Source: Hyphomicrobiaceae bacterium (GTDB lineage Bacteria; Pseudomonadota; Alphaproteobacteria; Rhizobiales; Hyphomicrobiaceae). Taken from it: a DNA stretch of 64,000 nucleotides. The notes under the pieces are model-generated. The model ran no database searches. It worked only from the letters and a program-made list of their open reading frames with translations, and was not told the DNA's origin. Positions 44,312 through 58,107 of the stretch are shown piece by piece (the first letter of the stretch is position 1; each line of letters begins with the position of its first letter). The stretch is taken from assembly GCA_022842785.1 (NCBI GenBank), contig JALHOW010000001.1:620001-684000 (forward strand). The letters run 5' to 3'. A program made the translations under genes and the position numbers.

Positions 44312-45508
44312 CTAGTTGAACGCGCTGTAGAGCTCGTCAAGTGCGTGGACCAGGTCCGCCATCTGGACGTCGGAGTGCGCGGGGCTCGGCGTGAGGCGCA
44401 TGCGCTCCGTACCTTTCGAGACAGTGGGGTAGTTGATCGGCTGCACGTAGATCCCATGCTGGCTAAGGAGGCTGTCCGTTACCGCCTTGCAGCGAATGGG
44501 ACAGCCGACCATCACAGGGACGATGTGACTGGGATTGTCCATGACGGGCAAGCTCTTCGCCTTCAGTAGCCTCTTGAGCGTGCGGGCGCGCTCCTGATGC
44601 CGGGCGCGCTCGATCGTGCTGGTCTTCAAGTGGCGGATGGAAGCCAATGCGCCGGCCGCGATCGCTGGTGCGAGGGACGTCGTGAAGATGAACCCCGGCG
44701 CAAATGAACGGATTGCGTCACAAAGATCGCGCGAGCCGGCGATGTAGCCCCCCATGACACCAAAGCCCTTGGCGAGCGTGCCATTGATGATGTCGACGCG
44801 ATCCAACACGCCGTCACGCTCGGCAATGCCACCGCCGCGGGGACCGTACATGCCGACCGCGTGCACCTCATCGAGATAGGTGAGTGCACCGTACTTGTCG
44901 GCGAGATCGCAGATCGCCGCGATCGGCGCTATGTGACCGTCCATGGAGTAGACGCTCTCGAATGCGATGATCTTGGGCGTGCTCTTCGGGCACTTCCTGA
45001 GCTTGGCTTCGAGATCGTCGATGTCGTTGTGGCGGAATATGTGCTTCTCGCACATGCCGTGGCGGATGCCTTCGATCATCGACGCGTGGTTCTTCTCGTC
45101 CGAGAAGACGACCGTGCCGTGCACGAGCTTGATGAGGGTTGAAAGCGTCGCATCATTGGCGACATAGGCTGACGTGAAGAGAAGTGCGGCCTCCTTGCCG
45201 TGCAGGTCCGCGAGCTCGCTCTCGAGTTCGACGTGATAGTGCGTCGTGCCGGAGATGTTTCGCGTGCCGCCCGAGCCCGCACCCACCGCGTCGATCGCCT
45301 CATGCATAGCCGCCAGGACCGCCGGGTGCTGGCCCATGCCGAGGTAATCGTTGGAGCACCACACGGTAATTTCGCGCGCGCCGCTCGTTGCGAGATGATC
45401 GGCAACGGGAAAGTTCCCGCGACGGCGCTTCAGGTCGGCAAACACGCGATAGCGCCCTTCCCGATGAAGGACCTCGATCTGCTGCTGGAAGACATGCTCA
45501 AAGTTCAT
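44312..45508 (-). CDS. hemA: 5-aminolevulinate synthase
   Basis: The enzyme condenses glycine and succinyl-CoA to 5-aminolevulinate, the first step of heme synthesis by the C4 route used in alphaproteobacteria. At 398 residues it has full length. The PLP lysine is Lys247 in [13 protein letters not shown], the ring-nitrogen aspartate Asp213 is in [13 protein letters not shown], and [20 protein letters not shown] is the substrate region. ATG 45508 follows GGAGAG by six bases. It lies 32 bases after a CcmI-like gene in a probable operon with a pentaheme cytochrome and a beta-barrel. A gene copy tied to that operon would supply extra heme. Confidence 0.95.
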
Positions 45509-45540
45509 ATCGCTCTCCTGCGCGCTCGGCGTCGCGGCCG

Positions 45541-46341
45541 TCACTCGACTTTGAGGCCGAGTTCATTGGCCGCGGCCGTGATCTTCCCGGATGCCGCCGC
45601 ATCGTCCTTGAAGACGTCGAGCGCTTTGCGCAGGGCTGTAGCCGCGACATCCTTCTCACCAAGCACGACGCGAGAGCGCATGAGCCTGGTCCAACCGTCG
45701 GGATCGCGCGGAGAGTTCTCGAGGCGAGCGGCCAGACCATCGACCATCGATCGTATGGCTGTCTCACGATCCTGCGGAGGCATAGCCTGGTAGGCGGCAA
45801 CCTGCTCGGCGCTTGGTTCGCCGGGCGCCTTGTGGGGAGCTGCAGATTGCATGGGCGGAGCCGCAGTTGCGGTCTCGCTTTCGGCGGCCTTGGTCTTGGC
45901 CTCGTCGTATTCGAGCTTGAGCTCGAAGGAGTTGGGATCGAGCTCTACGGCCTTCGCATAGGCAGCCGTAGCCTCTTTGTAGCGGCCGATGTGATAGTAG
46001 GACCACCCGAGGGTCCGCCAACCTTTGCCGTCTTCGGGTGCGCTCTTGAGCCGATCCGCAAGCCGATCGGCCATCGTGTTCACATCCGGAAGAAGTTTGG
46101 CGCCCGGCGGCGGCGCCGTCGTATGGTCGGCACCATTGGACTGCGCATAGTCCTTCAGGCGCGCGAGCGTGGCGTCACTGGATCCGGAGCGCGACGTGGC
46201 CGTCACGGCAGTCGACCCTTTCAGATAGGACGCTGCCGCACCCAGACCTGCCGCGAGCAGACACACGGCAGCTGCTACGATCAGTATTCCGGCGCCACCT
46301 CGCAGGCCGCGTTCTTTCTCCGATGCAATCTGGCTGCTCAT
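45541..46341 (-). CDS. Membrane-anchored TPR protein, CcmI/CycH-like
   Basis: The 266-residue protein has one membrane anchor ([23 protein letters not shown]), then periplasmic TPR repeats: [20 protein letters not shown] with [15 protein letters not shown], then a linker, then [37 protein letters not shown] closely resembles the heme-ligation chaperone CcmI, which holds apocytochrome c for heme attachment, but the double N-terminal helix of CcmI is absent. Its place between a multiheme-cytochrome unit and hemA supports a maturation role. ATG 46341 is preferred because AGGAC stands seven bases before it. Confidence 0.75.
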
Positions 46342-46393
46342 GATATGTCCTCGCATAGTTTACTGTCAGGCCTGGGCCGACATCCGCAATCCA

Positions 46394-48022
46394 TCAGAAC
46401 TTCCTGCGAAGTTCCGTGCGGACGCCGAAGTTGTCCTCTCTGCCCTCGATGAACTGGTAGGTCGCATCCGCGCGCAGGATCCAGGAATGGTTGAGCGCGA
46501 TCTGATAGCGCACACCGAGGCCGTACTGCGCTTCCTGGACGCTCGTGTCGGAGTTGCCGAAGGGCTGCACCATGGCCGCCTCGAATACGAGCTGCTGGTC
46601 CAGGTTGAAGAGATACTGCAGGCCGATCGCACCGCCCCACGCATCCGCAGCCGTGTCATTGAGCTTGGGAAAGCCCGTCAGCGCGTCGGTCTCGAAGTTG
46701 ATACCGACGTTCTTCAAGATACCGGCATTGAACCCGTCGACGAGTGGCTGCGGATTTCCGACGCCAACGAAGAAGTTCGCATACGGGATCAGCGTGCTCG
46801 GCAAGCGCGTGATCAGGCTGTTCTCCGAGATGATGGCAAAGCCGTCATCGTTCGCGCCATTGCCGAAGTTCGCGAAGACACGCGTCGAGTTCGATATGGT
46901 GTTGGCGTAGCGCCGCGAGTAGGCGGCGGTCACGAAGTTCGTGTACTGGCCCTCCAGCTCTCTCGTGCCTTCCAGGAGGCCGTACCCGGCTTCGATGTAT
47001 CCGCTGAAGGCATCGATGAACGTGGTGATGCCGTAGATGTTGGCGTGGCGCTTGTTCACGCCGAGGATGCCGGGATTGTCGACATTATCGAAACCGGCGA
47101 ACAGCGTGATGTCGAAGTTGGCAAGCCCGAGCGCCGCGGAGTTCTTCGCAGGGATACTCACCGCGCCGCCGAGAATTGCGTCGTTCGCCCAGATGCCATT
47201 CTGGAGGAACAGCGGGAACAGGCCGAACGTGAAGGGCAGGTCGAACCCGGCCTGCTTGCCGGATAGGCCGGAATAGATGGACCCGAGATCGCCCTCGAAG
47301 AAGAGCGTTTGCGGGTTGAGGTCGAACTCGCCGGTGAGCCTGCCATCGCCGTCGCCGCCCGAGAATTCATAGCGGGTGAAGCGATTGTTCCGCTGAAGCG
47401 GCGTGAAGAAGGCGTGTATGCGTTCGGTGCCGGTGATCTTGAAATCGACGTCGACGTTCACGCGTGTCGCGATCTGACCGACATCCCTGCCGTTGTTTCT
47501 GTTGAAGGCGACAGCTGTTCGCCAGTCGCCGTACACTGCAAGACCCGGCACCAACGGATTCAAAGCACCGAGAATGGTGCTGCTCTCTTCGTACGCGCCG
47601 GACGTGTATTGCGGGCGACCAAGCTCGAATATCGGGCGCGGGGTTTCGACATCGACCTTCGCGCCGTAGATGTCGACGTTCGACTTCGGGTCGTACTTTC
47701 CTTCGTACTGCGGGTCGGAGCGGAATAGGTCGTCGGTGGAGTCTTTGCCGCTGCCCTTGCGTACTTCGGTGACTTTTTCGCCGTCAGCAGACTTCTTCTT
47801 GGCGGCCGCACCTACGTACCGCGGCTCCTGGTACTCGGAGGGAAACAAGGACGATCCGCCGGGCCAGAGTGTGCTCAACCAGCTCTCCGATTGCCCCTGG
47901 CTGCCTTGCGCTGCGGCGGGCGCGGCACTCGCAACTGACATCACAAAAAATGCGCCGGCGATCAGCGCGATGGTAGCGGTCGTTCTTCTGGCGCGGCATA
48001 GAAAGCTGCCAATACAAGTCAT
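46394..48022 (-). CDS. Outer-membrane beta-barrel protein linked to multiheme cytochrome
   Basis: This 542-residue protein has a signal peptide (TTATIALIAGAFFVMSVASA, cleavage near APAAAQ), a charged N-terminal region and then alternating strands ending in LRADATYQFIEG and a C-terminal phenylalanine, as in outer-membrane proteins. Strand-like segments include TRVNVDVDFKITGTERIHAF, GLANFDITLFAGFDNVDNPG and IGLQYLFNLDQQLVFEAAMV. No family name comes to mind. The gene follows the pentaheme cytochrome by 100 bases on the same strand. A conduit role, as in porin-cytochrome complexes, is possible but unproven; it lacks the N-terminal CXXC motif I associate with MtrB. Confidence 0.7.
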   Translation of the reverse strand: MTCIGSFLCRARRTTATIALIAGAFFVMSVASAAPAAAQGSQGQSESWLSTLWPGGSSLFPSEYQEPRYVGAAAKKKSADGEKVTEVRKGSGKDSTDDLFRSDPQYEGKYDPKSNVDIYGAKVDVETPRPIFELGRPQYTSGAYEESSTILGALNPLVPGLAVYGDWRTAVAFNRNNGRDVGQIATRVNVDVDFKITGTERIHAFFTPLQRNNRFTRYEFSGGDGDGRLTGEFDLNPQTLFFEGDLGSIYSGLSGKQAGFDLPFTFGLFPLFLQNGIWANDAILGGAVSIPAKNSAALGLANFDITLFAGFDNVDNPGILGVNKRHANIYGITTFIDAFSGYIEAGYGLLEGTRELEGQYTNFVTAAYSRRYANTISNSTRVFANFGNGANDDGFAIISENSLITRLPSTLIPYANFFVGVGNPQPLVDGFNAGILKNVGINFETDALTGFPKLNDTAADAWGGAIGLQYLFNLDQQLVFEAAMVQPFGNSDTSVQEAQYGLGVRYQIALNHSWILRADATYQFIEGREDNFGVRTELRRKF

Positions 48023-48122
48023 TTCAAATTCCAATGTCGTGAGGCTGATGTGCGGGGTGAGGTGGGGCCCGCTTGCTCGCACCCAGTGCGGGCCCCAATC
48101 CGTAACCCTCGGCGATCCGGAA

Positions 48123-50123
48123 CTAGCGCTTGATTTCGAGCTGCGCCGTTGAAGCTTTGAAGCTCAACATTCGCTCGTTCATGCGCCGTTCCATTTCCTT
48201 CGTCGCGCCAACGAAGCGCATGAAGTAGATCGGCTCAGCTCGGCTTCGCAATCTGAAGGCGAGGCGATAGTTGCCCGGCTTCTTGATGAGGTTGCCTGGC
48301 ACGCGGTACTTCGCGAGCCTTTCGCCCAAAGGCGGCAACGAGTGGTTCTCCATGCGCACCAGTGGCGGATGGTTGAGAACCTTGGTCGGAACCTGCGGCG
48401 GGCGCAGATGCGGCAGCGGGTCAACGTCGAAGTTCACCGGCAGGTACATCTCGCGGTCCGTGCCCTTGACGTTGGTGGTCAAGAACTTCGTCTGGAAGTT
48501 CACGAGCTGCTGGTCGGTCTTGATGCGACCGGCGGCTACATCCAGGCTGTGCAGATCGGCGACGTCGCCGTTGCTGTCGACATAGCCGGACTCCCAGATG
48601 TTCTGTCCGTCAGGATCGACGAGCGCGACGTTCACCCAGAGCTGGGGCTGCGCACCGAGCGATCCAGAAGGAAGATTGTGCCCCGAATTGAGGTTCTTGA
48701 TCTTGTAGGAGAACGCCAGTTCCCTGCCGATCCTCGGCTCGCTCTCGAAGTAAGGGCCGCCGACCTCAGCGCCGTTCTCCATGACCTGCCGCCTGACTTC
48801 GTCGCGCTCGTCAAGCTTGCGGATGTTCTCCTCGATGATTTGTCGTGCATCCTCGCGGTCGAGCCCATCGGCCCAGCGCTTCGGAAACGTCACCTTGATC
48901 TTGTTGGACGCAACCTTGTCCTCGAACTCGGCAGTGCCCCATCCGGCGCGCCAGTCGAACTCGAGCCAATCCTTCATGGTGAAGGCCTGGGCCTTCGTGT
49001 TGTGCGGGAACACGCCCGGATGTGCGATCGAGTAGCCTGGGCCGATGAAGCGATGATTGGAGTGCTTGCGTCCCGGATTGATCTCCTTGCCGCCGACGAT
49101 GGCCGAGGGTGCTGTCGCATAGCCCTCGGGCTTTCCGGGCACCTTGCCCATGTGGCAGTCCTGACAGGTGACGCCTTCTTTCCTTGCCGGGCTGTCGCGA
49201 TACTGATCCCATACGATCTCGAGCTTGATGCCGAGATTGACGGCGACCTGGTGACAGCTGACGCAGAACTCCGACTTGCCAAGCTGCGGGTTCGTCATCA
49301 TGCCGTTGTGAATGCTCGTGCCGCGCCCGTCCTTGCTGGTCTTGACGGAGTAGGTTTCTTTGTTCGCGAGAATGTCCTTGATGACACTCTTCTCGCCAGT
49401 GCCATAGACCGGATCGAAGATCTTGCCCGGCTCGACGCGACGCTCGCCGTCCACCTTGCCGTACTGCTCGCTGACGCGGTGGCAGGTGATGCAGGTCACG
49501 CCCTCGCGGGAAATCGCGGCGCGCTGCCAAAGCGGTGTGTCGCGCTTCTCTCCGAGCTGCGTTCCGACCTGCGCATGACAGCGCACGCAGAAGGTACCGA
49601 CCGTGCCTTGTGTCAGCTCCGTAAACTTCTGCTCGAAGGCGTGAAACATCGGCGAGATAGAAGAGTAGGCGTGCTGCGACGACGCCCACTCTTCATAAAT
49701 CTCCTTATGACATTCGCCGCACTGCGCGGCCGTCGGAAAGAGGGACAGGGTCTCCTCGTCAATCACGGGAATTGGAGAGGCTTGGTCCTTGGAAGCCTTC
49801 GCGATGGCCCCGAAGATCGACATCTGCCCTTTGCCGTACGAGCCCGCACCGGCCGATACGTTCTGCCCCCCGGCAGGCGCACCGCCCTTGGCTCTCTTCT
49901 GCTCGTCTTCCTTGATGAGGGCATCGAGCTTGGACTTGGCATCGGGTTGCCCGGCCTGGACAAGCATAAGTCGTTGCTCGGGCTGCACGCTCTCAGTTTG
50001 CACGGCCTCGCCGGACTCCGCGACGGCCTTCTGGCTGAGGAACGCTGTTTGGCTCAGGATTGCGCCTGCAAACGCGCATGAAAGCATCGATGCGCCGGAT
50101 AATACCGTCAACGCGGTACGCAT
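48123..50123 (-). CDS. Pentaheme cytochrome c (c554-type domains)
   Basis: The 666-residue protein has a signal peptide (ALTVLSGASMLSCAFAGAIL) and five CXXCH heme sites: about residues 135 (CGECH), 179 (CVRCH), 211 (CITCH), 287 (CVSCH) and 320 (CQDCH). The order and spacing resemble cytochrome c554-type domains. A 330-residue C-terminal part without heme sites follows; it contains LNSGHNLPSGSLGAQPQLWV and NVALVDPDGQNIWESGY and looks beta-rich. ATG 50123 is preferred over 50153 because GGGGGA stands about eight bases before it. It heads the minus-strand operon and is divergent from the reductase-tetraheme-decaheme unit. Confidence 0.88.
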   Translation of the reverse strand: MRTALTVLSGASMLSCAFAGAILSQTAFLSQKAVAESGEAVQTESVQPEQRLMLVQAGQPDAKSKLDALIKEDEQKRAKGGAPAGGQNVSAGAGSYGKGQMSIFGAIAKASKDQASPIPVIDEETLSLFPTAAQCGECHKEIYEEWASSQHAYSSISPMFHAFEQKFTELTQGTVGTFCVRCHAQVGTQLGEKRDTPLWQRAAISREGVTCITCHRVSEQYGKVDGERRVEPGKIFDPVYGTGEKSVIKDILANKETYSVKTSKDGRGTSIHNGMMTNPQLGKSEFCVSCHQVAVNLGIKLEIVWDQYRDSPARKEGVTCQDCHMGKVPGKPEGYATAPSAIVGGKEINPGRKHSNHRFIGPGYSIAHPGVFPHNTKAQAFTMKDWLEFDWRAGWGTAEFEDKVASNKIKVTFPKRWADGLDREDARQIIEENIRKLDERDEVRRQVMENGAEVGGPYFESEPRIGRELAFSYKIKNLNSGHNLPSGSLGAQPQLWVNVALVDPDGQNIWESGYVDSNGDVADLHSLDVAAGRIKTDQQLVNFQTKFLTTNVKGTDREMYLPVNFDVDPLPHLRPPQVPTKVLNHPPLVRMENHSLPPLGERLAKYRVPGNLIKKPGNYRLAFRLRSRAEPIYFMRFVGATKEMERRMNERMLSFKASTAQLEIKR

Positions 50124-50838
50124 TACTCTATTCCCCCGTAGATCTATCCTCATTCCCCCTAGATTTCAGGGCGGCATCCCGATTTATATTTATTGGCGTA
50201 GCGGCGGTATTCGGCCGCCATGCGGGATTGCCAAACTGAAGATGAAAGAGGCTAGTAATAGAAAGGGGCGCGAAGGGGTCGCATCCAAAGCCAAATCATG
50301 GCAAGAATCAGCAAAACTTGCGTCAAATGCTCGATGCGAGTTTTCACGAAGCCGCGAAATATTGAAATAATCACCTGACTAATAAATCAAATTTGCTATA
50401 GTCATTTATGAGAGTAAAAGCATTACAGATTATGTCAACGCGCTCACGCGTTGCCGGATATGCTTCTAACTATCCGACAAGATGCCGCTTTTTCAGGCGT
50501 CTTATGCCGGCCTGCGGCCTTGCGATGCCCCGACGTGTCAGGCGCTAATTCGCCAGCGAGACGCTATTCAATTTCGCCCGAAAAGTGTCGACTGCTCGCC
50601 ATCTGTAATCATCAAACGGTCATTGTCTGAACACGATGGGGGGATGGATTAATGGCGAAAGTCGAGGGCGATTGGATCTCATTCGATATGGCTGAATAGC
50701 GATCCCATCTCCATCCGCGATGTCGCGGATATTCAGCTCCAAAATGTTTGGCTAGCTGAGTAACCCAGGAATCGCAGTGACGGCGGTGTTTTGGCGCCAG
50801 CCGTAAGGTTAGTAATCGAGTCCTTCCGGGAACGGCCC
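50124..50838. other. Divergent intergenic region between cytochrome operons
   Basis: About 715 bases separate the two divergent multiheme operons. The middle, near 50360-50440, is clearly richer in A and T than the surroundings. No gene is convincing; a 46-codon frame from ATG 50408 has no recognisable content. The region must hold both promoters and probably a shared regulatory site. I could not find a clean FNR or sigma-54 match in it. Confidence 0.6.
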
Positions 50839-51954
50839 ATGTCTGGAAACTGCGAGATCACGGTCAACGGCACCACCTTCAGGGCGCGCCGCGGCGAGAT
50901 CCTGTTGGATGCCGCGCTCAACAATGGCGTCGACCTTCCCTACGATTGTCGATCCGGCCATTGCGGCACGTGCTGCGTGCGGCTGGTTTCGGGCGAAGTA
51001 CACGGCGGCGAAGGCGCCGAACCCGGCGTCGTCCACGCCTGTCAGTGCCGTGTCGTTGGCGATGCCATACTGGAGAAGGAGCAATCAGGCGTTCGCAGTG
51101 TCGAAGGCGTGCTCAGTTCGCTGCGACCACTCTCGTCCGATGTGATCGAAGTGGGCATCCGGACAGACCGCGCGTTACCCTATCTGGCAGGTCAATATGC
51201 GCAGGTGCGGTTCAGGGGTTATCCGAGCAGGCCCTTCAGCATCACGCACCCACTGCACGCAAACCCCGACAGCCAATCCGTCTGGTTCCATGTGCGGCGC
51301 ATGAAAGGCGGGCGCGTCACGTCCGCACTCGGCAGGCGCATCAAGCCAGGCCATCGTGTGAAGCTGATCGGTCCTTATGGCTCCGCGCATTTCCGGCCGA
51401 ACCTTGAAGGCCGGCTGATGCTCATCGCCACCAACACGGGGTTCGCGCCGATATGGTCGATCGCCGTCGCGGCACTGCGTGAGAATCCGGAGCGGATGAT
51501 GATGATCATCGCCGGCGGCCGCACGCTCGAGTCACTTTATATGGTGCCGGCTCTCGCGCGATTGGCCCGCTTTCCGAACGTCCTTATCGTGCCTGTTTGC
51601 AGCACGCCGCAGAACGTGACGGATGCGGTGAAGCTTGGCCGGCCAACCGACTACTTGCCGCACCTGCTGCCGAGCGACGTGCTCTTCGTTTGCGGCGCGC
51701 CGGGGATGGTTGATGCAATCAAATCGGTCGCAGGTCGTGCCCGTGCGGTCTGCTATGCGGATCCGTTCCTGCCGAGCACCGACGACACGATCGAGGAAGG
51801 CGTACTGACACGTGCCATGGGGTGGCTTTCCGTGCCCTCCATTCGGCAGATCGGCCAACTCTCTATCGATCGCTCACAAGATCGGCAGGAGCCGCCGATG
51901 CGCACGCCCAGGATGGACGCTGAAGCAAGGGTGAGAAGTCATTTTCGTTCGTAA
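50839..51954 (+). CDS. 2Fe-2S ferredoxin-type flavoprotein reductase
   Basis: This 371-residue cytoplasmic protein fuses two units. The N-terminal plant-type ferredoxin domain has the four ligands in [11 protein letters not shown] and HACQC. The ferredoxin-NADP reductase-like part has the FAD motif RPFSIT in [13 protein letters not shown] and the NAD(P) motif [12 protein letters not shown], with a C-terminal [10 protein letters not shown]. Such proteins pass electrons from NAD(P)H to oxygenases or redox partners. No oxygenase gene is near; instead two multiheme cytochromes and a membrane protein follow on the same strand. ATG 50839 is chosen over 50791; its ribosome-binding site is weak. The likely partner is the membrane protein at 53085. 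Confidence 0.88.
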
Positions 51955-51961
51955 GGGGTAC

Positions 51962-53008
51962 ATGTTTCGGTCGATCGTGTTCAAGGCCGGGGTCTTTCCC
52001 CGGTCTTTGCTGGTTTGCCTCTGCAGTTTGCTGACGATCCTCGCCTTCGCGTCGGGCAGAACGATTGCGTCCGATGCGGCGAAGATCGTCGGCCCGAACG
52101 CCTGCGCCGAATGTCACAAGCAGGAGGCGGAGGCCTGGAAGGGCTCGCACCATTTCAAAACATTTCGCGAGATGCCACGCCGCAAGGAAGCCAATCAAAT
52201 AGCGGAAAAGATGGGTGTCCAGCGCATCAGATCGGAGGGTATCTGCCTCGGCTGCCACTACACGGTGCAGCAGAAGGACAACAGCAAACAGCCCGTTGCC
52301 GGGATCTCCTGCGAGTCATGCCATAGCGCCGGCGAGGATTGGATCAAGGTCCACAGCCAGTTCAGCGGCAAGACCGAGAAGACAGAGACGAAGGCAGAGA
52401 AAGATGCGCGTTTGAAGCTCGCCTCGTCCAAGGGGATGATCAGACCATCCGCTATCTATCAAATGACCAAGAACTGCTACAGCTGCCACGTCGTGCCGCA
52501 AGAGGATCTTGTGAACAAAGGCGGGCATCCCGCGGGCAGTGCGTTCGAGATGGTGTCCTGGTCGCAGGGCGAAGTGCGGCACAACACCTGGCACTCCAAG
52601 GGCAAGGAGAATGTCCAGGCCAATGCGTCGCGCAAACGGATGCTCTATCTTGTTGGTCTCGGCGTCGAACTCGAGACGGCCCTCCGCGCTATCGGAAAGT
52701 CAACAGTCAGACGCACCTATGCGTTCGCCATGGCCAAGCGCGCCGACAACGCGCGCAAGCAGCTCGCCGCTGCAGCGAAGGCGGTGCCGAGCGTTCCCGA
52801 GATCGCGAAGCTCGTCGAGTTCGGGCACTCGGCCGGGTTGAAGCTGAACAATGAGCGCTATCTGGCTGCTGCTGCCGATGGCATTGCAAAGACGTTGGCG
52901 AGCATTTCCGAGAAGTACGACGGCAGTACCATGGCTGGGCTCGACAGCCTCATACCCGGATCGGACAAGTTCAAAGGCAAGGCACAACCACCCGGTACAT
53001 CGAATTGA
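51962..53008 (+). CDS. Tetraheme cytochrome c, c554-like
   Basis: The 348-residue protein has a signal peptide (LLVCLCSLLTILAFASG) and four CXXCH sites: Cys48 (CAECH), Cys95 (CLGCH), Cys117 (CESCH) and Cys172 (CYSCH). Four hemes with this layout, including ACAECHKQEAEAWKGSHHFK, fit cytochrome c554, known as an electron carrier after hydroxylamine oxidoreductase in ammonia oxidisers. No such oxidoreductase is in the window. The C-terminal half is helical and has no heme site. The gene starts 7 bases after the reductase gene, so the two are co-transcribed. Confidence 0.9.
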   Translation: MFRSIVFKAGVFPRSLLVCLCSLLTILAFASGRTIASDAAKIVGPNACAECHKQEAEAWKGSHHFKTFREMPRRKEANQIAEKMGVQRIRSEGICLGCHYTVQQKDNSKQPVAGISCESCHSAGEDWIKVHSQFSGKTEKTETKAEKDARLKLASSKGMIRPSAIYQMTKNCYSCHVVPQEDLVNKGGHPAGSAFEMVSWSQGEVRHNTWHSKGKENVQANASRKRMLYLVGLGVELETALRAIGKSTVRRTYAFAMAKRADNARKQLAAAAKAVPSVPEIAKLVEFGHSAGLKLNNERYLAAAADGIAKTLASISEKYDGSTMAGLDSLIPGSDKFKGKAQPPGTSN

Positions 53009-53084
53009 TGCGGGACGCCGAGCCGTGCCTCGAGTTTACTGATGAGGAGAGTGGCACCACGATGGGTGTTCTCGGGGGATCGCC

Positions 53085-53957
53085 ATGAGATCCGCGGCGC
53101 GGCGTGCGTCTGACGGTTCAATCGGCATCCGTACAGCCCAGGGTCTGATAATCGCGCTGATTTCCGGCGGATTGTTCTGGCTCGTCTGGATCTATGGCAA
53201 CGGGCTCCGCGATCCGCGCTATCTCGACGGTTGGATACTGGCGAGTGGCATGGGGCTGCAGATCTATTTTCACGTTGCCATCAAGCGCGGCAGCCTGTCC
53301 CCAAGCGCGGCCACACGCTGGCGAAAGATCCACCTGTTCGTCGGCTATCTGTTGATTGCCGCGTTCCTCTCGCATTGCGAGTTCTCGCTGCCGGATACGG
53401 GTTTCGAGTGGGCGCTGTGGTCTGGCTTCGTGCTCGTAACACTGAGCGGCATTCTCGGGACTTACCTTGCGTGGGCGCTCAAGGCGCGGCACGGGCTCGA
53501 CGAGAGCGTGGGGCTGGATCGCATACCGGCACGCCGTGCGGAACTCGCCGAAGAGGTTCATGCCATTGTCGCCGATAGCGATCCGGCGCCGACGTTGTTT
53601 GCCTTGCCTGCACCGCCCCATGATGCCTGGATCATGGATCTCTATTCGATGCACTTGGAGACCTACTTCGAAGGGCCGCGGAATCTCATGGCCCATCTCA
53701 TCGGTTCCAAGCGCCCACTCAAGCGCCTGACCGACGAGATCGAGAGCCTGTCCCGCTACGTCGATCCGCAAAGCCAGGAGAAGCTTGCGGCCATCAAGAA
53801 CCTGGTAGTCGAAAAGGATCGGCTCGACTTCGCACGCATCTATCTCGGACTGTCGAAAGGCTGGCTGTTCGTGCACGTGCCCGTCACTTACGGCCTGATC
53901 GTGCTGACAGTGCTGCACATCCTCGTCGTGTATGCTTTTTCGTCGGGGCCACTGTGA
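53085..53957 (+). CDS. Membrane protein with intramembrane histidines, possible cytochrome b
   Basis: The 290-residue protein has five predicted helices: about residues 19-38, 47-66, 82-99, 109-130 and 260-284. Histidines lie in or beside helices at His63, His83, His97, His264 and His278, a pattern that could ligate one or two b-type hemes. A soluble loop of about 125 residues separates helices 4 and 5. I could not assign it to a named family. It sits between the tetraheme and decaheme genes, and its stop overlaps the decaheme start (TGATG). A quinol- or NADH-linked link between cytoplasm and periplasm is the obvious hypothesis. Confidence 0.7.
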   Translation: MRSAARRASDGSIGIRTAQGLIIALISGGLFWLVWIYGNGLRDPRYLDGWILASGMGLQIYFHVAIKRGSLSPSAATRWRKIHLFVGYLLIAAFLSHCEFSLPDTGFEWALWSGFVLVTLSGILGTYLAWALKARHGLDESVGLDRIPARRAELAEEVHAIVADSDPAPTLFALPAPPHDAWIMDLYSMHLETYFEGPRNLMAHLIGSKRPLKRLTDEIESLSRYVDPQSQEKLAAIKNLVVEKDRLDFARIYLGLSKGWLFVHVPVTYGLIVLTVLHILVVYAFSSGPL

Positions 53958-56176
53958 TGTGGTGGCGAGGAGGGAGCCGTGCAGTTCGCAGGCCGCCGGC
54001 CGAGAAGCCCGCGCGTCCGAACCTGTTGCGCGACCGCATTGCCGCTCTTGCGGCAATCGTGACGGCCGTCTGCGTCGCTGCAGTGTTCCTCCTCGCCAAG
54101 GACACACAGTTCCTCATGCCGGGCCCGCTCATCAGCGCGCACAGTGCGATCGAGAATTGCAGCACGTGCCATACCGGGAGCGGGAGCAGCGGGAACCTCA
54201 GTTGGACGCAGGGTCTTGTCCCCCGTGATCCGCACGCTGACAGCAAGGCCTGTCTCACCTGCCACAAAATGCCGGACACGGCCTTCAATGCGCATGGAGC
54301 TTCCGTCGATGCGCTGAAGCGGAGCACGGAGCGGCTGATCAAGACTGCAGCGACCATGGACGCGCCGCTATCGGCGCGCGTCCAGGGCAGTGCCTTTCCG
54401 ACGGACGGTATGACGGAGCAAGGCCTATCTTGCGCGACCTGCCATCAGGAACATCAGGGTGCCAAGTTCAATCTGAGTAAGATCTCGAATGAGCAATGCC
54501 GCTCCTGCCATGTCGTCAAATTCGACAGCTTCGACGGCCAGCATCCGAAGTTCGAGAGCTATCCCTTCAAGCATCGCACGCCGATCATCTACGATCACGC
54601 GGGACACTTCGGTAAGCACTTCCCGGAAGTGTCAAAGAAGGATCCGGCAAAGCGTATTCCCGAGACCTGCGCGAGCTGTCACAACAGTCGCGATGACAAG
54701 CGCCTCATGTCCGTGGCGCCATTCGAGCAGACCTGTTCGAGCTGCCATCTCGATCAGATCACGGGTAAGGATCGCGTGAGTGGTCCGAAAGGCATCGCCT
54801 TCCTGACATTACCCGGCCTCGACCTGCCAACGCTGAAGAAGAAGAACGCTGCGATCGGCGAATGGCCCGACGCGTCCGAAGCCGCGCTCGCGCCCTTCAT
54901 GAAGGTGATGATCAGCCGGACCGATCAGGGGCGTGCTTTGATCAAGACCGTGGAAGGTCTGAACCTTCAGGATCTGTCAAAGGCGAACGATCGCCAGATC
55001 AGAGCAGTCACGAGCCTCGTTTGGGAAATCAAGGGGCTCTTCTACGCGCTGATCAAGGGAAAGGCTTCCGATGTACTTGCCGACCTCGGCATGGGTGGAG
55101 GGGCGAAGCTGAGTGCCGGTCTCGTCGCCGATCTTACCGCGAGCATGCCGCGCGATGTCGTCGTCGCCGCACAACAGCAATGGCTGCCCAATCTCGGCGC
55201 GGAAATGGCCAATCGCCCGGAACAGCGCAAAGTGCAAGGCCAGGAAAAGCGGCAGGAGCCGACGCAGCAGGAGCCGGGCGGTTGGATCACGACCACGACG
55301 GAGTCGAGATCGACGGTCGATAGCGATACGGCGACCATACCCGAGCCGTTCCGGATCGCTCAGGCCGATGCGCCGGCACCTCGGGCAAAGGCGGCGGACC
55401 AGACGGACGATCTACTCAATCCGACGGAGGATGAGCTGAAAGGAATTGCCGGCCCCACCAAGGAAGCTCTGTCGAAAGGTGGAAGAGCTGGTGGCAAACC
55501 TGACGCCGCTCCATCTGCCGACGCGAGTCCGCCTGCGGCTGCTGCGCCCGCGGCGCCAGAATCTGCAGCAGCAGCGCCGCAGCGCGGCGCGGCACCCGTG
55601 ATCAGTATCGAAAGCGGCGTGGATCCAGAGAGCTGGGCCGAGTATGGCGGCTGGTACCATCAGGATCACGCGATCTTCTATCGTCCTGCGGGCCACAAGG
55701 ATAAGTTCATCCACACATGGCTCTTCCTGACGGGCCCGCAGGCGCCGAAGGGGCAGAAGACTCCCGCGGCAGCGGTCTTCGACTATCTCACGAGCAAGGA
55801 CGCGCAAGGCTCATGCACGAAGTGCCACAGCGTGGATGATTTGCAGGGCAAAGGGCGCGTGGTGAATTTCTCGCCGCCCAAGGTCGAGAGCAGGCAGGGG
55901 CGCTTCACACAGTTCGTCCACGAGCCGCATTTCGGCATCATGGAGAACCGTGGTTGCTTGACGTGCCATAGCCTCGAGAAGGAACGCCCCTATCTGAAAA
56001 GCTACGAGCAGGGCAATCCGAAGAGCTTCGCGTCAAACTTCGGCGGCGTGAAGAAGGAGCTCTGCCAGTCCTGCCACACGAGCAACATGGCGCGGCAAGA
56101 CTGCCTGACGTGCCACAAGTATCATGTGAATGGCGTGCTCACGCCCATCATCAACACGAAGATCCCAACGGAATAG
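53957..56176 (+). CDS. Membrane-anchored decaheme cytochrome c
   Basis: The 739-residue protein has one N-terminal anchor (ALAAIVTAVCVAAVFLLA) and ten CXXCH sites. Six lie in the first third at about residues 68, 99, 159, 181, 238 and 260 (CSTCH, CLTCH, CATCH, CRSCH, CASCH, CSSCH). Four lie at the end at about 620, 667, 703 and 716 (CTKCH, CLTCH, CQSCH, CLTCH). The middle 350 residues carry no heme and include a proline- and alanine-rich disordered stretch (about 500-560), so two heme modules are joined by a flexible linker. ATG 53957 overlaps the previous stop; GTG 53954 is an alternative. It ends the plus-strand operon. Confidence 0.9.
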   Translation: MWWRGGSRAVRRPPAEKPARPNLLRDRIAALAAIVTAVCVAAVFLLAKDTQFLMPGPLISAHSAIENCSTCHTGSGSSGNLSWTQGLVPRDPHADSKACLTCHKMPDTAFNAHGASVDALKRSTERLIKTAATMDAPLSARVQGSAFPTDGMTEQGLSCATCHQEHQGAKFNLSKISNEQCRSCHVVKFDSFDGQHPKFESYPFKHRTPIIYDHAGHFGKHFPEVSKKDPAKRIPETCASCHNSRDDKRLMSVAPFEQTCSSCHLDQITGKDRVSGPKGIAFLTLPGLDLPTLKKKNAAIGEWPDASEAALAPFMKVMISRTDQGRALIKTVEGLNLQDLSKANDRQIRAVTSLVWEIKGLFYALIKGKASDVLADLGMGGGAKLSAGLVADLTASMPRDVVVAAQQQWLPNLGAEMANRPEQRKVQGQEKRQEPTQQEPGGWITTTTESRSTVDSDTATIPEPFRIAQADAPAPRAKAADQTDDLLNPTEDELKGIAGPTKEALSKGGRAGGKPDAAPSADASPPAAAAPAAPESAAAAPQRGAAPVISIESGVDPESWAEYGGWYHQDHAIFYRPAGHKDKFIHTWLFLTGPQAPKGQKTPAAAVFDYLTSKDAQGSCTKCHSVDDLQGKGRVVNFSPPKVESRQGRFTQFVHEPHFGIMENRGCLTCHSLEKERPYLKSYEQGNPKSFASNFGGVKKELCQSCHTSNMARQDCLTCHKYHVNGVLTPIINTKIPTE

Positions 56177-56224: not shown

Positions 56225-56758
56225 TCAGTTCGTGCCATCGAGGACGGGATGCGCGCCACGCAGCGCTGCATTCTCGGCACGGATGCGAACGGCCAGAACC
56301 GCTGCATTCGCCAGCGAGAATATCAAGGCAAAGGCGACAAGCCCGAACGCCATGGGCAGAACGAAAATCTCGGCTGCGACGACGGCATAATTCGGATGCG
56401 AGAGAAAGCGATATGGGCCGCTGCGGATCGGCGGAGCCTCAGGCAATACGATGACGCGTGTCGTCCATCGCGCACCGAGCGTGAGGAGAACCCAACCTCG
56501 CGTGGCTTGCAAGAGCAGGAATACGGCGAGCCAGCCGTAGTGCGGATGTATGCCGTGTGCCAGGAGCCACAGTCCGGCCAGCCACGCCGTGTGCAGAGCG
56601 ACGATCAACGGGTAGTGCGATGCCCCGTGCTCGACGCCACCAATCTCCTTGAGACGTGACTCGTTGAAGCGGGCATAAACGAGTTCTGCGAGCCGTTGCG
56701 CCGTTACGAGAGCGAGCACAGCGATGGCGAGCGCATCGAGATGAAGCCAGTCGGGCAT
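56225..56758 (-). CDS. Isoprenylcysteine carboxyl methyltransferase-like membrane methyltransferase
   Basis: This 177-residue protein has four to five membrane helices and the ICMT-family core GPYRFLSHPNYAVVAAEIFV. Such enzymes methylate small lipophilic substrates; next to type III polyketide synthases they methylate alkylpyrone or alkylresorcinol products, as the YpbQ/BpsB protein does in Bacillus. Here its ATG overlaps the stop of a type III polyketide synthase (TGATG at 56758), which supports that role. It is convergent with the decaheme gene. Confidence 0.85.
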   Translation of the reverse strand: MPDWLHLDALAIAVLALVTAQRLAELVYARFNESRLKEIGGVEHGASHYPLIVALHTAWLAGLWLLAHGIHPHYGWLAVFLLLQATRGWVLLTLGARWTTRVIVLPEAPPIRSGPYRFLSHPNYAVVAAEIFVLPMAFGLVAFALIFSLANAAVLAVRIRAENAALRGAHPVLDGTN

Positions 56759-57816
56759 CAAGCTGGAACTCCCTCGAGCGTCACCGTGCTCAGCGTGAAG
56801 CCGGGGCCGAATGCCATGAGCATCGAGCGTGAAGGCAGGCCTGCCGCCAATGCGCGCTCCAGTACGAAGAGTGCGGTGGGCGCGGACATATTTCCGAAGT
56901 GTGCCAGCACTGCGCGCTCATGGTCGAGTGAGCCGGCCTTCAATGACAGCCCGCTTTCGATCGCTTCAATGATCTTGGCGCCGCCGGGATGGCAGATGAA
57001 GCGGTCGATGCTGTCGCGCGAGAGACCTTGGCGCTGAAGGATGTGCCCGACTGCGGGACGCAAATGCTCCAGGGCGAACGGTGGGATCGAGCGATCAAAA
57101 ATGACGCCAAAGCCTTGCTGATCGACATCCCAACCCATGATGTTGAGCGTATCGGGCCAGGTGTACTCGTCTGCAGCCGTAATCCGCGCGCAGCCGCGCG
57201 CATCCGTTCGGATGACGGCCGCCGCGGCGCCGTCACCGAACAGCGCAAGTGCCACGATGTTGGCTTTGGTCAGCTTGTCGAGCCTGATTGCGAGCGAGCA
57301 CAACTCGACTGCGACCACCAGGACGTTGCTGCCAGGGCGTGCTTCGGCGAGACGCGCGCCGATTGAAAGGCCGGTAACGCCGCCGGCACAGCCTAAGCCG
57401 AAGACGGGTACACGCGCGATGTCAGGTCGCAGTTTCAATGCTGCGGCCGCGCGCGTTTCCAAGCTCGGCGTTGCGATGCCGGTCGAGGATACGGTGACCA
57501 CGCAATCGACATCCGCGCCTGAGAGGCCGGCTCTTGCGAGCGCTCGATGTGATGCAGCGACGAACAGTTGTGTGGCTTCGGAAAGGTACACTTCGGTGCG
57601 TTCGGGCCAGGACCGATCCTGCTCGTACCACTCACCGGGACGCACGGCATGGCGACGTGCGATGCCGGCATTCTCGAATACGGGCGCAAGGCGCTCGAAC
57701 TCCGGCATGCGAAGGCCGAACATGCGCCGTGTGCGTTCCGCGACCTCATCCTGGGTAGCGATGTACTCGGGTACGGCAGTGGCGATCGAACACAACCGCG
57801 CTTTGGATCCAGGCAA
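56758..57816 (-). CDS. Type III polyketide synthase (chalcone/stilbene synthase family)
   Basis: The enzyme extends an acyl-CoA starter with malonyl-CoA and cyclises the product to an alkylpyrone or alkylresorcinol. The Cys-His-Asn triad is visible: Cys143 in GLGCAGGVTG, His274 in ICHPGGAK and Asn307 in FGNMSAPTALF, counted from the start chosen here. That start is TTG 57816, which has GGGAG eight bases upstream and gives the family N-terminus (KARLCSIATAVPEYIATQDE); an ATG at 57915 would add 33 unlikely residues. The methyltransferase follows with overlapping stop and start. The product is probably a membrane lipid or quinone-like compound. Confidence 0.9.
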   Translation of the reverse strand: MPGSKARLCSIATAVPEYIATQDEVAERTRRMFGLRMPEFERLAPVFENAGIARRHAVRPGEWYEQDRSWPERTEVYLSEATQLFVAASHRALARAGLSGADVDCVVTVSSTGIATPSLETRAAAALKLRPDIARVPVFGLGCAGGVTGLSIGARLAEARPGSNVLVVAVELCSLAIRLDKLTKANIVALALFGDGAAAAVIRTDARGCARITAADEYTWPDTLNIMGWDVDQQGFGVIFDRSIPPFALEHLRPAVGHILQRQGLSRDSIDRFICHPGGAKIIEAIESGLSLKAGSLDHERAVLAHFGNMSAPTALFVLERALAAGLPSRSMLMAFGPGFTLSTVTLEGVPA

Positions 57817-58107
57817 TGCTGAAACTCCCAGAACGACGCCCGCAAGAAAGCCGCCAATATTGCGGCTCCAGGTATGTGAAGCCACGCAACCGCGACGAAA
57901 TGATGGAGCAGGCAAGCGTTTTCGAGGCAGCGCTCGGCGAAGGTCATCGACCGCTGCGCGAGCCCACTAAGTCATCAATCGCGGCAATGCAGTGTGGCGG
58001 CGCCGACGGCCGCGCGCACATCGGTATTAACCCCGGAACTGAGATAAGAGAGGTCGATATCGGCGCCTATATCGTCCGTTCAATTGACCTGTGGTTGCGG
58101 CCAGCGC

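Follow-up and report, generated by a model that had tools for sequence, protein, structure and literature searches.

A PCC4 cluster in a Hyphomicrobiaceae genome

The 64,000-nucleotide window analysed here (bases 620001-684000 of contig 1 of a Hyphomicrobiaceae genome of 4.98 Mb, 99% complete) carries a multiheme cytochrome cluster that belongs to subgroup I of PCC4, a porin-cytochrome cluster described as putative by He et al. in 2017 (PMC5566968). It encodes a pentaheme (MHC5), a tetraheme (THC4) and a decaheme cytochrome (DHC10), an inner-membrane protein (MEM), a 2Fe-2S, FAD- and NAD-binding reductase (FNR) and an outer-membrane β-barrel (OMB), with two accessory proteins, 5-aminolevulinate synthase (ALAS) and a tetratricopeptide repeat (TPR) protein. 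The cluster may form an envelope-spanning relay that carries electrons from NAD(P)H outward and uses DDLL-type motifs for docking, a reading whose chance of being correct is put just short of even.

As described in the main text of He et al. (PMC5566968), PCC4 consists of a porin, three cytochromes that bear 4, 5 and 10 hemes, and a membrane protein of five helices in which SGXXG and two WX3HX13H motifs occur, the HX13H pairs being a pattern of ferric reductase and NOX domains. It was first met in iron oxidisers and water-filter genomes and occurs in Hyphomicrobium and others; subgroup I is divergently arranged and without the Fer4 gene, and its function is putative. The window contained the barrel gene (by model), three cytochromes whose heme sites number 4, 5 and 10, and a MEM with SGXXG and both WX3HX13H motifs, as well as the divergent order, the absence of a Fer4 gene and the redox gene with another domain order that mark subgroup I. 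The closest relatives of the locus were Hyphomicrobium and other Hyphomicrobiaceae records.

An initial annotation, made from the sequence alone, had regarded the combination as matching no known system, a view that no longer holds as the set had already been described as PCC4 subgroup I; the likeness to porin-cytochrome systems that it noted was supported. All eight of its open reading frames were confirmed with unchanged coordinates. Its 19 CXXCH sites (5 in MHC5, 4 in THC4 and 10 in DHC10) were counted again, while 1000 shuffles of each cytochrome gave means of 0.002-0.023 sites and never more than one. The two divergent operons with tight junctions were also recovered (4-base overlaps of ALAS with TPR and of MEM with DHC10, and a 7-base gap between FNR and THC4), as were the 2Fe-2S flavoprotein, through its three domains, the outer-membrane barrel, through its model, and the heme-supply gene, whose product scored above the ALA synthase cut-off and has a second full copy in the genome (G000:C5:149895-151097). 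The proposed seven-gene set stood as a conserved cluster, with the number corrected to eight genes, six of them forming the conserved core. Of the five-helix MEM with intramembrane histidines, the histidines were retained, all four being conserved; a plain hydropathy scan gave four clear helices, five being the published figure for the family.

PCC4 is named once in the text of a 2026 metagenome paper (PMC13264449). No tested PCC4 member was found in the literature searched, outside which most subscription journals lie, so that a test may be overlooked. PCC4 is widespread, and its presence in the named strains Hyphomicrobium facile DSM 1565 (L035) and H. zavarzinii ATCC 27496 (L049) makes its role accessible to bench tests.

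Conservation and co-occurrence of the core genes

A single scan of GTDB genomes returned 70 loci, assigned here to subgroup I (L032-L065 without L061; 33 loci) and subgroup II (L061 and L066-L101; 37 loci, including the short or doubtful rows L078, L080, L084 and L097-L101). The six core genes (DHC10, MEM, FNR, THC4, MHC5 and OMB) stood together in 29 of the 33 subgroup I loci, so that the outcome against which the initial annotation had advised a co-occurrence search, namely genes that never cluster, was not seen; the four incomplete loci are contigs of 4.9-12.5 kb. By gene, DHC10 and MEM were each present in 33 of these loci, FNR and THC4 in 32, MHC5 in 31 and OMB in 29. Within the fetched stretches, with flanks of at most 10 kb, ALAS was found in five of the 33 loci and the TPR gene in 25, on either side of the core depending on the locus.

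A sample of 297 genomes from the order contained 18 with DHC10 (E 1e-10); 17 of them also had MHC5 (E 1e-40), which was missing from all the other 279. Both counts were made with the same sample size and the same genome handles; the DHC10 genome without MHC5 (G057) is 83% complete. Among 20 genomes reached via the loci, OMB was present in 13, all of which possessed MHC5 (E 1e-133 or better). In nine of these 13 (G388-G395, G397), MHC5 and OMB lay away from the fetched DHC10 locus, elsewhere in the assembly, a separation to be read with caution as several are metagenome-assembled genomes with possibly broken contigs, MHC5 of G397 is split in two, and L083 and L084 are weak as DHC10 loci. In the seven of the 20 genomes without OMB, MHC5 was unmatched in five and weak in two (E 9.6e-12 and 1.1e-8); L097-L100, which belong to genomes without OMB, have a doubtful DHC10. 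MEM was present in 45 of 103 Hyphomicrobiaceae genomes, and the system is thus patchy in this family.

Cytochromes and heme ligands

In the whole genome, Cytochrome_C554 matched only MHC5 and THC4, and Cytochrome_C7 only DHC10 (E 0.01). Alignments of 44 MHC5, 60 THC4 and 58 DHC10 sequences, pre-filtered to the full heme number, were inspected for conserved histidines outside the CXXCH sites. MHC5 possessed five invariant ones and two conserved in 43 of 44 sequences, THC4 four, all invariant, and DHC10 nine invariant ones, one at 57/58 and one more at 52/58; the ten conserved histidines of DHC10 divide 6+4 by module, matching the module heme counts. These alignments suggest that bis-His ligation is possible for all 19 hemes. 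As each of the three cytochromes has at least as many of these conserved histidines as hemes, the proteins look like wires rather than enzymes, and a catalytic heme is disfavoured.

MHC5 resembled the penta-heme cytochrome c552 of Thermochromatium tepidum (5ze8) by VIA-align and by sequence profile. The heme region of its model was of low confidence (mean predicted local distance difference test score, pLDDT, 64.1), and Foldseek with this model returned nothing at E 0.001 or better. The MHC5 signal peptide has a cysteine in its hydrophobic part (MLSC; LLAC in some relatives), which is lipobox-like, so that a lipoprotein is possible. Residues 42-176 of THC4 matched cytochrome c554 of Nitrosomonas (1bvb, E 9.7e-9); against NCBIfam CycA, THC4 scored 54 bits, far short of the cut-off of 400. 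DHC10 has a transmembrane segment at residues 24-42, and the linker between its modules spans 165 residues with a net charge of -10 in the window; across 40 loci, the final part of the inter-module segment has a median length of 225 residues and a net charge of -14. A PDB sequence search with DHC10 (E to 0.1) found nothing.

Outer-membrane barrel, membrane protein and reductase

OMB had no Pfam match at E 0.1, and a PDB profile search with it (E to 1) found nothing. Its model contained 19 strand elements, read as a barrel of ~18 strands, and its best structural matches were channels of OprD/AlgE/MOMP size (Foldseek, VIA-align). A count of hydrophobicity alternation gave 23 peaks, some of them in the tail or doubled, and the model was preferred. 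OMB thus models as an ~18-strand channel of OprD/AlgE size and not as a 26-strand Mtr sheath. MtrB is reported with 26 strands and an opening of ~30 Å (PMC7198977); it was absent among the 50 listed structural matches of OMB (Foldseek, VIA-align), which is no proof, and the MtrB/PioB family (PF11854) had no match in the genome at E 0.01. The locus therefore differs from MtrAB/PioAB in having neither a PF11854 barrel nor, according to the model, a barrel of ~26 strands sheathing a decaheme cytochrome, and an Mtr-like sheath is disfavoured by the ~18-strand model.

The four histidines of MEM were kept in all 59 sequences aligned, and every motif was present as written in 47 of them. Its only Pfam match was a sub-threshold one to cytochrome b561, and a PDB sequence search (E to 1) found nothing. 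As MEM had no match to pfam01794 (FRD) at E 0.1, its FRD/NOX likeness is one of analogy and not of membership. FNR possessed intact FAD, NAD and 2Fe-2S domains, and across 29 sequences its FAD (RxxS) and CRaGHCGtCC motifs were conserved; no membrane anchor was seen in it, and its true start may be internal. Relative to subgroup I, FNR of subgroup II has a reversed domain order and an N-terminal hydrophobic stretch.

DDLL-type motifs in linkers and tails

A DDLL-type motif was present in all 32 testable subgroup I DHC10 linkers, that of the window included (34 loci with the window, of which L043 and L063 were excluded for broken DHC10 reads). Its context was mostly Q[ST]D[DE]LLxPTExEL, the remaining linker being unalignable by eye. 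These linkers contained 34 DDLL motifs against 6.2 in shuffled sequences (maximum 13). The motif was likewise in excess in subgroup II, both in the MHC5 tails (38 against 3.3, maximum 9 of 500 shuffles) and in the linkers (32 against 7.9, maximum 18), and so was a DFG form there (6 against 0.6 and 19 against 2.6). DDLL copies in DHC10 and MHC5, respectively, numbered 8 and 9 in L067, 11 and 13 in L068, 4 and 2 in L071, 2 and 2 in L075, and 1 and 1 in L074, while L090 and L091 had instead a D-D-F-G form in both proteins (7/3 and 3/3). Across 16 subgroup II loci, the copy numbers in the two proteins were correlated (Spearman 0.76 for DDLL and 0.75 for DFG, kinship uncorrected).

The OMB tail carried DLF in 15 of 28 subgroup I barrels. 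DDLL-like motifs in the whole OMB (57 seen, 35 shuffled) were not counted, being mostly the C-terminal DNFG of the barrel, and THC4, FNR, MEM, the TPR protein and the cyclic-nucleotide-binding protein described below showed no excess. Wherever the linker had a net charge of -6 or less, THC4 was basic; it was acidic in L085, L087, L088 and L089, four loci with short, nearly neutral linkers. As the charge of THC4 follows that of the linker, THC4 is a candidate receptor of the DDLL motifs.

Subgroup II and the apparent mosaic origin of subgroup I

Most subgroup II loci (L066-L096; e.g. L072:7196-8902) encoded a protein with cyclic nucleoside monophosphate (cNMP)-binding domains and 4Fe-4S motifs, both demonstrated in L066 (hereafter cNMP-FeS). 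Its consensus was FGE-x-aAl-x-R-x-pR-x-at over 26 aligned sequences, 17 of which matched the strict pattern. A CHASE2-cyclase-like gene was found in 10 loci, each of which also had the cNMP-FeS protein, and was next to FNR in six; only in L072, where the gene is ~5 kb off, was the presence of both cyclase domains confirmed, and the other nine were grouped by similarity. He et al. (PMC5566968) mention a Fer4 protein; the terms "cyclic nucleotide", "cNMP" and "adenylate cyclase" are absent from their main text.

In L066, L067, L072 and others, the DHC10 N-terminus was Cys-rich, of the type WVCGxxxxGxPCxxGPxxxGxC, ahead of the membrane anchor; that of L072 had no Pfam match. Across 66 loci (the truncated L043, L061, L078 and L080 being outside this count, as was L101, which has no DHC10), 27 had both the cNMP-FeS protein and the Cys-rich end, 35 neither, four the protein only and none the Cys-rich end only.

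In the MHC5 tree (44 rows), subgroup I grouped with the Opitutae loci L071 and L075 (100/100), with a warning for long branches. L093, whose MHC5 was too long for this alignment, was near subgroup I in MHC5 (52%) and OMB (40%). The DHC10 tree (24 rows, first module) instead placed subgroup I with the alphaproteobacterial L066 and L072 (99/98) and left L071, L075 and L093 outside. Because the two trees conflict, the evolutionary histories of the outer pair and of the inner module seem to differ, and subgroup I would seem to be a mosaic. The cNMP-FeS protein and the Cys-rich DHC10 N-terminus were probably lost in subgroup I, as L066 and L072 possess both, a conclusion that depends on the root.

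Upstream region

Matches to Fnr, Irr, RirA, Crp, sigma54, Mur, EcfG and other boxes were scattered over 31 divergent intergenic regions, none being common to most. A de novo search yielded a 24-base motif. Of 27 regions (the 31 without four planctomycete regions), 17 had it with no more than 5 mismatches, compared to 1 of 81 simulated ones (first-order Markov); the other ten regions were without it. In L041, where FNR and MHC5 are apart, the motif was upstream of FNR. Its TTGTC-T-GACCA core presumably resembles a GntR/FadR-type operator. With up to 3 mismatches allowed, the genome contained no second copy of the site in the window, which thus gave no clue to a regulon.

Proposed electron flow and alternatives

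In the proposed relay, cytosolic NAD(P)H would reduce FNR at its FAD and 2Fe-2S centres, and FNR would pass electrons to MEM, whose two b hemes would lead from the cytosolic to the periplasmic face. The hexaheme module of the membrane-anchored DHC10 would then be reduced and would hand electrons to its tetraheme module on the flexible acidic linker, from where the basic THC4 could carry them to MHC5 at the outer membrane. MHC5 might exchange electrons with a small soluble partner or a metal complex arriving by or through the ~18-strand OMB channel. Docking sites would be provided by the DDLL-type motifs, both those of the linker and those that several subgroup II genomes have in the MHC5 tail. 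ALAS and the TPR protein would serve heme supply and cytochrome assembly. The gene set, the heme, His and reductase motifs, the co-occurrence and the motif conservation are read from sequence, and the barrel size and MHC5 fold are modelled; from these we infer every arrow of the relay, that is its direction, carrier order, docking and substrate.

Outward flow is favoured because FNR, with intact NAD and FAD domains, stands first in its operon, because MEM has a NOX/FRE-like heme-b pattern, and because RuBisCO is absent. As no RuBisCO large subunit was found in the 99% complete genome (E 0.01), Calvin-cycle growth on Fe(II) is unlikely here. The route from NAD(P)H through MEM to the cytochromes, suggested in the initial annotation, is consistent with the conserved parts; an Mtr-like sheath at the outer membrane is weakened by the barrel model.

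Several points weigh against this outward, motif-docked relay. The direction is not fixed by sequence, and quinone could be the redox partner of MEM, as in the proposal of He et al. (PMC5566968); the absence of RuBisCO is compatible with mixotrophic metal oxidation or with other carbon fixation. FNR differs in domain order between the two subgroups and is maybe not orthologous, so that the entry of NAD(P)H electrons could have been added locally. Concerning the docking, L072 had nine DDLL motifs in MHC5 and a DHC10 with no match to the pattern, the counts for L066 and L070 were one and none, and six of the 16 subgroup II loci (L077, L085, L087, L088, L089, L093) had neither form in either protein. 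The subgroup I MHC5 tails held one motif in 31, with 0.7 expected, and the correlations of charge and repeats rest on related sequences. The promoter region, moreover, had no conserved site of the Fnr, Irr, RirA or Mur type from which the signal could be named.

The inward relay proposed in the main text of He et al. (PMC5566968), in which extracellular Fe(II), Mn(II) or another outside donor would feed the porin-cytochrome complex, MEM and finally quinone, has the standing of a published proposal, draws on the iron oxidisers and water filters in which PCC4 was first found, and accords with the resemblance of MEM to quinone-active cytochromes b. An all-bis-His wire suits either direction, and FNR would in that case, as we add here, serve reverse NAD(P)+ reduction. 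It is nevertheless considered unlikely, given a genome with neither the RuBisCO large subunit nor the MtrB/PioB family, an ~18-strand barrel that provides no MtrAB-like sheath, and relatives that include genera not known as metal oxidisers.

A non-respiratory role is improbable: NAD(P)H would keep periplasmic or outer-membrane targets reduced, for metal-complex uptake or redox repair, with OMB importing the substrate. The fold of OMB, like that of the substrate channels OprD/AlgE, fits such a role, and MsrQ-type reductases also parallel the pairing of MEM with a flavin reductase. The same parallel exists with FRE/NOX-type reductases (PMC5566968). However, 19 hemes and a chain from membrane to outer membrane seem excessive for it, the cluster has no dedicated terminal enzyme, and no iron-responsive box was found. 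A nitrogen-compound pathway of the HAO-c554 type, with THC4 as c554, is very improbable despite the 1bvb and CycA matches of THC4; HAO was not among the eight proteins of the cluster (the genome was not searched for HAO), the CycA score is far below its cut-off, and four conserved distal His candidates in THC4 would leave no open heme.

Returning to the outward relay, a broader and rather doubtful proposal is that PCC4 is tethered and docked by motifs. The DHC10 tetraheme module would cross the periplasm on its disordered acidic linker, and the DDLL/DDFG motifs, matched in several genomes by the MHC5 tail, would recruit one and the same basic carrier; both ends, cytosolic and outer-membrane, would be exchangeable cassettes. 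NAD(P)H entry in subgroup II would be gated by the cNMP-FeS protein, served in some genomes by the neighbouring cyclase, and Hyphomicrobium would have an ungated, rewired form. If true, the docking motifs would explain how a tethered cytochrome can bridge the periplasm, and electron export in subgroup II would be under direct cyclic-nucleotide control.

Gene layout and neighbouring genes

Features of the PCC4 locus, with positions in the window.
Feature	Position	Strand	Basis or remark
ALAS, 5-aminolevulinate synthase, accessory	44312..45544	-	TIGR01821 666 bits, cut-off 338.6
TPR protein with CcmH/CycH-type TPR domain (cytochrome c biogenesis), accessory	45541..46356	-	TPR_CcmH_CycH, PF23914, E 2.2e-20
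OMB, outer-membrane β-barrel with disordered N-terminal tail	46394..48082	-	model, ~18 strands
DDLF in OMB tail, weak candidate docking site	47723..47734	-	tail pLDDT <50
MHC5, pentaheme cytochrome with Ig-like C-terminal domain	48123..50153	-	Cytochrome_C554 family
24-base conserved motif upstream of FNR operon (CATCAAANNGYCATTGTCTGAMCA)	50610..50633	+	
FNR, 2Fe-2S + FAD + NAD reductase	50791..51954	+	Fer2, FAD_binding_6, NAD_binding_1
THC4, tetraheme c554-like cytochrome, net +16	51962..53008	+	Cytochrome_C554, PF13435
MEM, inner-membrane protein	53085..53957	+	His83-X13-His97, His264-X13-His278, probably binding two b hemes
DHC10, decaheme cytochrome: N-terminal membrane anchor, hexaheme module, acidic linker, tetraheme module	53954..56176	+	Cytochrome_C7
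DDLL motif in DHC10 linker (QTDDLLNPTEDEL)	55406..55417	+	

Genes resembling a type III polyketide synthase (PKS) and an ICMT, named by reading the sequence, adjoin the cluster (56225-57915), and a PKS-like gene was again near it in L036, L040, L041 and L051. A YceI-group gene, confirmed for L034, was located beside the barrel gene or just past the cluster in 11 subgroup I loci (L034, L035, L037, L038, L042, L053-L055, L057, L058, L063).

Comparison with known systems

The locus shares with MtrAB, MtoAB and PioAB a barrel beside a multiheme cytochrome and a putative bis-His heme wire; it differs from them in the absence of PF11854, in having ~18 rather than 26 strands by model and a pentaheme rather than a decaheme neighbour, and in the addition of an NAD(P)H-type reductase. 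With FRD/NOX-type transmembrane reductases it has in common two HX13H heme-b pairs and an FAD/NAD reductase. Cytochrome c554 is a protein with an open heme; compared with that of Nitrosomonas (1bvb), THC4 is basic (pI 9.5) and all its hemes can be six-coordinate. MHC5 has 17% identity to the c552 of Thermochromatium tepidum (5ze8), to which it adds a disordered N-terminal tail and an adjoining barrel gene.

Within PCC4, subgroup II has the same six families, not all in every locus, in Roseibium, Rhodospirillales, Nitrospinota, Verrucomicrobiota and Planctomycetota, together with a cNMP-binding 4Fe-4S protein and mostly a Cys-rich DHC10 N-terminus, neither of which is in the present locus. To the description of He et al., the present analysis adds the barrel size, the bis-His wires, the DDLL motifs, the mosaic origin, the likeness of MHC5 to c552 and the cNMP link of subgroup II, each at the strength given above. 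With PCC4 subgroup I itself, the locus shares the porin, the cytochromes, the membrane protein, the redox gene before the tetraheme gene and a Hyphomicrobium-type host; the core gene content is identical, and the ALAS and TPR neighbours are noted here.

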